Shown: positions 36,777 through 39,410 of the stretch, piece by piece
Layout: each line of letters opens with the position of its first letter
Position numbering within the stretch: position 1 is the first letter of the stretch
Assembly: GCA_021463195.1 (NCBI GenBank)
Contig: JAJTXZ010000044.1
Location: forward strand, 1-41,083
Direction of reading: 5' to 3'
From: Anaerolineae bacterium
Lineage (GTDB): Bacteria; Chloroflexota; Anaerolineae; UBA4142; SHND01
Length of the DNA stretch: 41,083 bases
Program-made: the position numbers and the translations under genes
Notes under the pieces: generated by a model
Databases searched by the model: none
Told to the model about the DNA's origin: nothing
The model's input: the letters and a program-made list of their open reading frames with translations, nothing else

Positions 36777-37544
36777 TTATACCGTCTCTTTTAACACCCA
36801 CTCGTAACCTTGTTCTTCCAATTTTAGCGCGAGTTCTGGTCCGCCTTCGACGGCGATTTTGCCTTTGACCAGCACATGCACAAAATCGGGCTTGATGAAA
36901 TTCAAAATGCGTTGATAGTGCGTGATGATGAGGATGCCGAGATTCGGACCCTGCAGCGAATTAACGCCTTCGCTGACGATGCGCACGCCGTCAATATCAA
37001 GCCCCGAATCCGTTTCGTCGAGAATCGCGATTTCGGGTTGGAGAATCGCCATCTGCAAAATTTCCGCGCGCTTCTTTTCGCCGCCCGAAAAACCTTCATT
37101 CAAATAACGCGTCGCGAATGAATCATCCAATTTTAGCATCGCCATTTTTTCGCGCATCATTTTGCGAAATTCGGGAATCGCGATGGGTTTGAAATTGCCG
37201 TTCATGGTCGTTTTGCGTTTCGCGTTCAACGCGGTGCGTAAAAAGTTGGCGACGGTGACGCCGGAAACACTGTGCGGATATTGAAAGGCGAGGAACATGC
37301 CCGCGCGGGAGCGTTCATCGGGTTTCATTTCGAGGACGCTTTGCCCTTTGTACAAAATATCGCCTTGCGTGACGATATAATGCGGATGACCGAGTAGGGT
37401 GTTCGCTAACGTGGATTTGCCCGAACCGTTCGGGCCCATGACGGCGTGAACTTGGCCTTTGTCAATCGTCAAATTGACGCCTTTGATAATTTCTTTGCCT
37501 TCGACCTCGACATGAAGGTCGCGAATTTCTAAATCGTGAGCCAT
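36777..37544 (-). CDS. sufC: Fe-S assembly ATPase SufC
   Basis: A 255-residue ABC-type ATPase of the SufBCD complex. Walker A GPNGSGKST, Q-loop FLAFQYPHSV, signature SGGEKKR and Walker B AILDETDSGLD are all intact. The start is ATG 37544 (MAHDLEIRDLHV), with GGAGG about 9 bases upstream. It is the first suf gene on this strand; its upstream region holds a MITE-like element (37714-37917). The segment 37545-37713 is AT-rich and likely carries its promoter, but no clear boxes are seen. Confidence 0.97.
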   Translation of the reverse strand: MAHDLEIRDLHVEVEGKEIIKGVNLTIDKGQVHAVMGPNGSGKSTLANTLLGHPHYIVTQGDILYKGQSVLEMKPDERSRAGMFLAFQYPHSVSGVTVANFLRTALNAKRKTTMNGNFKPIAIPEFRKMMREKMAMLKLDDSFATRYLNEGFSGGEKKRAEILQMAILQPEIAILDETDSGLDIDGVRIVSEGVNSLQGPNLGILIITHYQRILNFIKPDFVHVLVKGKIAVEGGPELALKLEEQGYEWVLKETV

Positions 37545-37713
37545 GCGTGGAATTTCCTCCGGAATTTTCAAAAGTCCAGCGCGCGACCAAGCTGTCGCGG
37601 CTATGACAAATCAATTCTAATCGCGCGAGTTTAAAAGAATATAAGAATGGCGAAAGGTTTATAAAAATCGCGTTAGAGTTGTGAAGAAAGACGCAATGCT
37701 CATTTAAATAGAA

Positions 37714-37917
37714 TAGACTTTATGCTAAATAGGCTAGCTCATCGAATTGAATTCGACGGCAAAACAAAGCGTTCAAAAAAACAACGTAAATGCTGAACAA
37801 TGTTCAATGGGCATTGTTTTTTCTTGATCTTTGTTCAGGCGTGGAATTCAATTCCATGATGCGTCGCGTCATTCCCAAAATGCCCGCTTTCAAATTTCTT
37901 ATTTCGCATAAAGTCTA
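37714..37917. mobile_element. MITE-like element, 204 bp, with terminal inverted repeats and TA flanks
   Basis: TAGACTTTATGCTAAATA (37714-37731) and TATTTCGCATAAAGTCTA (37900-37917) are inverted copies with one mismatch. The outermost TA on both sides can be a duplicated TA target, as made by IS630/Tc1-mariner transposases. The inside holds no coding frame, but has TGAACA-A-TGTTCA (37794-37806), a 7-bp hairpin AACAATG/CATTGTT and two GAATT-N-AATTC palindromes (37744-37754 and 37842-37852 area). It lies between sufC and the CPBP gene, whose stop codon falls inside the right repeat. No transposase is in the window. Confidence 0.7.
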
Positions 37918-38787
37918 ATGAACTAAAATGCTTCGCGAGCTCCACGCTTGCCGCGCGAGCCATCCCAACGCGCCGAGTCCAATCAAGTGAATGCCAACGC
38001 TCCACACCAGCGCCGCCGTGTCGCCGTTCGTCGCGCTTAACACGAGCAGTAGTATTCCGAAATCGCGCGCGACGTCAAAACATTGATGCGCCCAGCCCAC
38101 CAAAGGAACGCTTGCGGTTTTGAACCACAGCCAACCCATTGCCGCGCCAAACAAAATATTCGAAAGCGCCAACGCGAGCGTGATGGTCAAAACATTCGCG
38201 CCGAACGTATCCAGAGAGAGCTCATTTTGAGATGCCACAAGAATGAGCGGCGCAATCACGACAGGCAAATGCCACAGCCCGCGCACGATTCCCGAAATCA
38301 CCACCGCGCCGATTTTTCCAAACGACGGCGCGAGCAGCGGCAAAAGATACGCGCACCAACCCAATTCTTCGCCCATCCCCGCGAGCCAGCCGAGCGTCAA
38401 ACCGCCGATGAGAATTAGCCACAAGTACGACGCGAACGGATTGCGGACCGCCAATTCGTTCGGCGCTTCCCATGCGCCCGCCGCAAGCGAAACGCCGCGC
38501 AAGACCAAAACTACCGCCGCGATTGCGAAATAATAACGCGCGTGGCTCCATTTCCAGACAGGGCGCAGCGCGTGATCAAAGCGTCGCCACATCACGAACG
38601 CGGCGAGCGCGGGGCCAGCCATTCCCAAAAAATGTCCGAACATTCCTACAACGGCTACAAGTGACGCGTCGAATTGATGCGCGAACGTTGGAATGAACCA
38701 AACGTCCAGCGCGAAAAAAATCGCCCACGAATACGCGAACGCGACCAGCGCGAAAAGCAGGGTGTGTCCGAGCGCGCGGCTTTTCAT
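37915..38787 (-). CDS. CPBP family intramembrane metalloprotease
   Basis: A 290-residue multi-pass membrane protein with about seven to eight hydrophobic helices. The CAAX-protease/bacteriocin-processing motifs are GMGEELGWCAYLLP (the Glu-Glu pair), VRGLWHLPVV (with His) and the late AHQCFDVA. The ATG at 38787 overlaps the stop of the DUF4386-like gene upstream (ATGA). The C-terminus (SSRSILVH, TAG at 37915-37917) ends exactly at the edge of the MITE-like repeat, so the natural tail may have been replaced. Substrate unknown; such proteases process peptides or prenylated proteins. Confidence 0.88.
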   Translation of the reverse strand: MKSRALGHTLLFALVAFAYSWAIFFALDVWFIPTFAHQFDASLVAVVGMFGHFLGMAGPALAAFVMWRRFDHALRPVWKWSHARYYFAIAAVVLVLRGVSLAAGAWEAPNELAVRNPFASYLWLILIGGLTLGWLAGMGEELGWCAYLLPLLAPSFGKIGAVVISGIVRGLWHLPVVIAPLILVASQNELSLDTFGANVLTITLALALSNILFGAAMGWLWFKTASVPLVGWAHQCFDVARDFGILLLVLSATNGDTAALVWSVGIHLIGLGALGWLARQAWSSRSILVH

Positions 38788-39410
38788 TTTGCCCGCCATA
38801 GAAAAACGCCGAGCCATACTGCCCACACCGCGCCGAGAATTAAAACGCCGAGCGCGAGAAACGGCACGAGACTCACCGCGCCGACCACCAACCCAAGCCA
38901 ACATAGCCCGCGCGGCAGCAATCCGCTCTTGAGCGCCGCCCAATTCACCAGCAGATACCAAACGCCGTTCGCCACGATGACGGCGAGTCCCAACAGCCCG
39001 ATGATGCCATTGAGCGCGTTCCCCGTGTTGGGATCGCTCGCCGAAAAATTCGCGGCTTGCGAAACAGCAAAAATGCTCAACACGGCATTGACGAGCAGCA
39101 AGCCGACCGCGAGGAAACCGAACGCTGTCGCCACGCGCAGTAACGTCGGCGCGGCGTCGCGCAAGCGTTTCCAGAGGACGACGATGAGAATGCTCGCAGT
39201 TGCCGCCGACACGAATTTCAAGAGGTCTTGGGCGAGCAGCGGCATTGGGTTAGCAATGGCAAGCGCGGCGAGTTGCTGCGGGTCGCTCAGCGCGCCGAGT
39301 CCGATGAACGCGACAGCGACGAGAAGCGATGCGCCCGCCGTGAACGCATTGACGAATGCGGCGATGCTGCCCGTTTTTTCAAGACGTGGTTGGGGTGTTT
39401 GCGCGGTCAT
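38784..39410 (-). CDS. DUF4386-like integral membrane protein
   Basis: A 208-residue protein with six probable membrane helices (about 22-45, 60-80, 85-105, 118-140, 150-170, 182-205). The pattern GSIAAFVNAFTAGASLLVAVAF, LLRVATAFGFLAVGLLLVNAVLS and GLLPRGLCWLGLVVGAVSLV resembles DUF4386. ATG at 39410 is supported by AAAGGAGCG. It overlaps the CPBP protease gene by 4 bases, so both are made together; the pairing suggests a joint membrane role of unknown kind. Confidence 0.78.
   Translation of the reverse strand: MTAQTPQPRLEKTGSIAAFVNAFTAGASLLVAVAFIGLGALSDPQQLAALAIANPMPLLAQDLLKFVSAATASILIVVLWKRLRDAAPTLLRVATAFGFLAVGLLLVNAVLSIFAVSQAANFSASDPNTGNALNGIIGLLGLAVIVANGVWYLLVNWAALKSGLLPRGLCWLGLVVGAVSLVPFLALGVLILGAVWAVWLGVFLWRAK

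Follow-up and report, generated by a model that had tools for sequence, protein, structure and literature searches.

Between a CPBP/Rce1-like membrane protease gene and sufC lies a short AT-rich stretch with inverted ends, and the locus raises the question of whether this is a mobile element, which transposase would move it and what its arrival did to the gene that it touches. A sequence-only reading of the window (the whole 41,083-nucleotide stretch of DNA that was analysed) had described a 204-bp MITE-like element that supplies the stop codon of the protease gene and might share its ends with an IS630/Tc1-type transposase. Our analysis makes it very probable that the element is a MITE cross-mobilised by an IS5-type transposase, that its landing made the TAG of the CPBP gene and that a REPIN-like interior was carried along.

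Limits, Ends and Target Duplication of the Element

The 18-bp inverted ends described earlier, TAGACTTTATGCTAAATA (37714-37731) and TAGACTTTATGCGAAATA (37917-37900), are present and match at 17/18 positions. The outer T and A of the proposed 204-bp unit are also there, but they belong to a 3-bp AAT duplication and not to the element. Flank comparison and end-repeat alignment place the element at 37715-37916 (202 bp), where it reads AGAC...GTCT with AAT on each side, and its terminal inverted repeats are 17 bp long with a 16/17 match once the outer T/A is assigned to the duplication (Table 1). It is short and non-coding, as a MITE bounded by such repeats should be: the earlier statement that it has no coding frame agrees with zero ORFs of at least 60 aa, and the description "AT-rich inside" with a G+C content of 38% vs 54% for the window. 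A search of the window for the end pattern, allowing 3 mismatches at most, returned two sites only, both of them the element ends (0.05 expected). The DNA fold of 37701-37930 reached -44 kcal/mol (shuffles -22.5 ± 3.5), and Rfam gave zero matches across 37000-39000.

Identical 3-bp flanks were found in 26/32 elements with such ends, with the form ANT in 23 of those; part of the 6 elements lacking identical 3-bp flanks are probably false end pairings. The duplication is ATT at the C99 copy, AGT at C54 and TGT/TGT at C69. The C69 copy has no outer TA pair, and the outer TA is therefore not element sequence; these 3-bp duplications, C69 included, rule out a TA target duplication.

Table 1. Coordinates of the element, its parts and the neighboring genes in the window.
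Feature	Position	Strand	Basis or remark
Left target duplication AAT	37712..37714		same 3-mer at 37917-37919
Right target duplication AAT	37917..37919		flank comparison with empty-site relative
Non-autonomous IS5-type MITE, 202 bp	37715..37916		G000:C99 copy 97% identical, in unrelated flanks and with a separate target duplication; site empty in G004
Left terminal inverted repeat AGACTTTATGCTAAATA	37715..37731	+	16/17 match to right end
Right terminal inverted repeat AGACTTTATGCGAAATA, continuing as AGACTTTATGCGAAATAAG	37900..37916	-	end motif common to IS5-type insertion sequences
Inner REPIN-like module, two inverted hairpin units	37740..37858		genus-wide dispersed repeat, mostly outside MITEs
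Hairpin unit 1 CATCGAATTGAATTCGACG	37740..37758	+	local pairing in 98.9% of cells, 13 copies
Hairpin unit 2, read on the - strand as CATGGAATTGAATTCCACG	37840..37858	-	compensatory CG to GC vs family consensus
CPBP/Rce1-like membrane protease gene (Pfam PF02517)	37915..38961	-	ORF limits, true start uncertain
CPBP stop codon TAG	37915..37917	-	T from target duplication, AG from element end
sufC (SUF Fe-S assembly ATPase)	36777..37544	-	ABC ATPase beside SufBD-core gene; downstream of element and co-directional; same order in G004
Promoter-like site TTTATA-16-TATATT for sufC	37638..37665	-	consensus match only; block conserved in empty-site relative

Further Copies and an Empty Site

Copy counts were taken from sequence searches of genomes. 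The C99 copy in the window's own genome, G000, is identical to the window element at 196/202 positions (97%), and the 100 bp on either side of the two are unrelated; C54 and C69 are older copies in the same genome as the window. In G004, which belongs to the same genus, the CPBP gene is followed directly by sufC and the element is absent. Alignment of this intergenic region scored 399.5 with the joined window flanks vs 339.0 with the filled site; small indels distinguish the window from G004 around the insertion, and across these we infer the exact pre-insertion sequence. For C99 an empty site was sought beside the adjacent gene in five congeners, where the alignment stops before the site and no element end lies nearby. 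The MITE reading had named as evidence against itself a single copy with no empty site in relatives, and what we found was the opposite: several copies in the genome (C99, C54 and C69), target duplications (26/32) and an empty site in G004. C69 was also considered as a module-less version of the window element and rejected, as its similarity to the C83 arms was weak (3/500 shuffles reached it) and the C54 arms showed none.

An IS5-Type Transposase With Matching Ends

A scan of public genome contigs found the extended end in 39 stretches, with record labels that include Chloroflexota, Cyanobacteria and Desulfobacterota. Two intact insertion sequences, L163 (1024 bp, encoding a 315-aa transposase) and L160 (1011 bp), have MITE-type ends and an ANT duplication. 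The L163 transposase matched PF13359 (DDE_Tnp_4, E = 1.4e-24) and PF13613 (HTH_Tnp_4, E = 4.1e-10), the domain pair of the IS5 family. In G019 an insertion sequence of this type, which an IS630 interrupts, has an end equal to the right end of the window element over 21 bp (TAGACTTTATGCGAAATAAGA). Together L163, L160 and L102 provide autonomous elements that share the MITE ends.

A DDE_Tnp_4 domain search of the window's own assembly and five congeners found zero transposases. Insertion sequences present in many copies are lost from MAG assemblies, and G004 provides a case for comparison: its contigs end within one with MITE-type ends, the pieces of which encode N- and C-terminal parts of an IS5-type transposase. 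Likeness between the MITE and the insertion sequences is restricted to the ~20-bp ends, and the MITE is therefore not a simple internal-deletion derivative.

In the mechanism that we propose, an IS5-family transposase (HTH_Tnp_4 + DDE_Tnp_4) would recognise the ends AGACTTTATSSGAAATAAG and duplicate a 3-bp target, mostly ANT; acting in trans, it would cross-mobilise the 202-bp MITE. We suspect an ISL2-like group of the IS5 family: ANT duplications, which we take to be the signature of the ISL2 group, were observed in 23/32 elements. No source on ANT duplication in the ISL2 group came up in a literature search; PMC3196728 names the group itself.

The CPBP Stop Codon

The claim that the element supplies the CPBP stop codon was upheld at the level of single bases (37917-37915), with the T taken from the duplication and the AG from the element; the minus-strand junction reads CAT T/AG ACT, the slash marking the element boundary. 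When the element and one AAT were removed in silico, the protein ended in ...ILVHSI*, vs ...ILVH* at present. On arriving two codons short of where the CPBP gene had ended, the element created the new TAG and, judged from the reconstructed site, probably shortened the protein by two residues. The stop codon is regenerated because an ANT target meets the AG at the element end. The CPBP protein of G004 (74% identical) ends at about equal length, and the shortening was therefore probably neutral.

A scan of 23 elements for overlap with stop codons found a few cases. At L082 (G005:C158, ~1502-1619) a MITE lies in a stop codon, with TGA changed to TAG at the same codon and the protein unchanged. 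Near the CPBP orthologue in G002 (L123, C45) there are tandem repeats with GCAAGCGATTCGAAATCGCGGCAACAACAAC motifs.

The Interior Hairpin Module

Inside the element two palindromic units stand inverted to each other and can fold into a hairpin, the arrangement that characterises REPINs. Dozens of copies of this module occur in the genus, most of them without the outer MITE ends, and matches to the hairpin unit numbered 27 in G000, 40 in G001 and 24 in G005 (0 there for a reversed control pattern). Pairing within the unit is kept through two-sided changes, with ~3 independent changes at one pair, some copies being related. Long-range pairing between the two units, unlike the local hairpins, did not exceed that of shuffles and was set aside as a conserved structure. 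The IS5-type MITE encloses a REPIN-like repeat, the inner module, which may have been taken up by an ancestral MITE, or inserted into it, and would now be carried along.

Units of the module also occur beside transposase genes. In G000 (L205, C6) an IS200-like Y1 transposase gene at 1438-1845 has two units on each side in inverted orientation (1286-1316, 1352-1382, 1941-1971 and 1994-2024), and its protein is recognised by the IS200 model but not by the REP-associated one. Variant units CAGCGAATnnnATTCGCCG, with a compensatory T-A to G-C change vs the main family, flank a Y1 gene of G005 at either end (L200, 1300-1330 and 2250-2280), and in G003 another Y1 gene has such a unit on one side (L201, 1916-1946).

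Five MITEs with ends like those of the element, L074, L080 and L083 in G001 and L076 and L082 in G005, have as their interiors an inverted repeat of ACAGGATTAACAGGATT type. This repeat is also seen outside MITEs (module flank, L065).

Other Readings of the Element

An IS630/Tc1-type MITE with a TA target duplication, as the sequence-only reading had supposed, would account for the TA at both ends of most copies, and the genome does contain one IS630-type gene. However, the flanks form a 3-bp ANT duplication, C69 has TGT/TGT and lacks the outer TA pair, the genome's own IS630 ends in the different sequence TAGACAACTCAA, and the intact insertion sequences with MITE ends encode an IS5-type transposase. 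A DDE_3 gene bounded by MITE ends was looked for; at L102 the IS630 proved to be nested inside an IS5-type element. Because IS5-type sequences are intact with the MITE ends and the own IS630 has other ends, the IS630/Tc1 assignment is rejected, and we consider it highly improbable. Just as improbable, in our judgement, is that a Y1 transposase moves all 202 bp as a REPIN or an IS200/IS605 derivative with incidental outer repeats. It is true that a Y1 transposase gene has the interior units on both sides, and that these units make hairpin pairs in inverted arrangement, but the outer ends carry 3-bp target duplications, are missing from most module copies and enclose unrelated interiors in other MITEs. 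IS200/IS605 elements are not known to make a target duplication on insertion.

The element might also be a regulatory RNA or a transcription barrier between CPBP and sufC and not a passenger, a reading that we hold to be unlikely, if somewhat less so than the two above. CPBP and sufC are co-directional and the RNA hairpin of the transcribed strand is strong (-68.7 kcal/mol, z = -6.4); against this, the G004 intergenic region does without the element, zero terminator-like sites were found on the - strand and the promoter-like site for sufC is downstream of the element. That site is the only promoter-like match for sufC and lies between the element and the gene, the insertion being upstream of it. 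The effect on sufC expression that the sequence-only reading had considered stays conjectural, and one on read-through from CPBP is possible.

In G000 an IS630-type sequence (L069, C67, ~1390-2500) with TAGACAACTCAA ends is inserted in a longer palindrome of AAGGGTTTTCGAAAACCCTT type, with its transposase broken into two ORFs.

Significance of the Locus

The feature in the window is a genuine IS5-type MITE with a REPIN-like passenger; both kinds are known and the members are new. The likely transposase family is corrected from IS630-type to IS5-type, and the MITE family, which occurs in several phyla, now has exact ends and a target rule. The element is an example of one repeat family riding inside another, and stop-codon regeneration from ANT + AG can be sought at other copies. 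More tentatively, and with less than even chances, the IS5-type MITEs of this genus may be interchangeable carriers whose interiors come from other palindromic families, REPIN-like here and ACAGGATT-type in congeners. If this nested hitch-hiking is true, several unrelated repeat families owe their spread to one transposase.

Comparison With Known Systems

With the IS5 family and its MITEs the system shares the PF13613/PF13359 transposase, a single-ORF element of ~1 kb, inverted ends of ~20 bp and the 3-bp ANT duplication. It differs in that the best NCBIfam IS5 model matches the partner transposase below the model cut-off, and in that the window MITE shares only its ends with the insertion sequence.

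The interior resembles REPINs (PMC3116915) in its inverted palindromic doublet with spacer, its hairpins, compensatory changes and dispersed copies, and a Y1 gene flanked by units; it differs in that inner-module copies number in the tens, no GTAG tag was seen and the Y1 protein scores as IS200 and not as REP-associated. Like the interior, TIRtrons and CGTC repeats (PMC3733652) combine a tyrosine transposase gene with self-complementary inverted repeats on its flanks, and these repeats also make up dispersed families. The CGTC superfamily is defined by an unpaired CGTC tag, an 8-9 bp stem and a 4-5 nt loop (PMC3733652), whereas the CGTC at one end of our inner hairpin pairs in the local stem and the loop is 3 nt; none of the published CGTC families has matching stem and loop sizes, and the module falls outside this superfamily of REPs. 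The closest parallel in nesting is GTAG-15 of Anabaena variabilis, whose dimers sit inside long palindromes (PMC3733652, section 7), so that there too a REP dimer is nested in a longer palindromic element. In Anabaena variabilis, however, the outer palindrome was not found without the REP, whereas here the outer ends are also found with other interiors.
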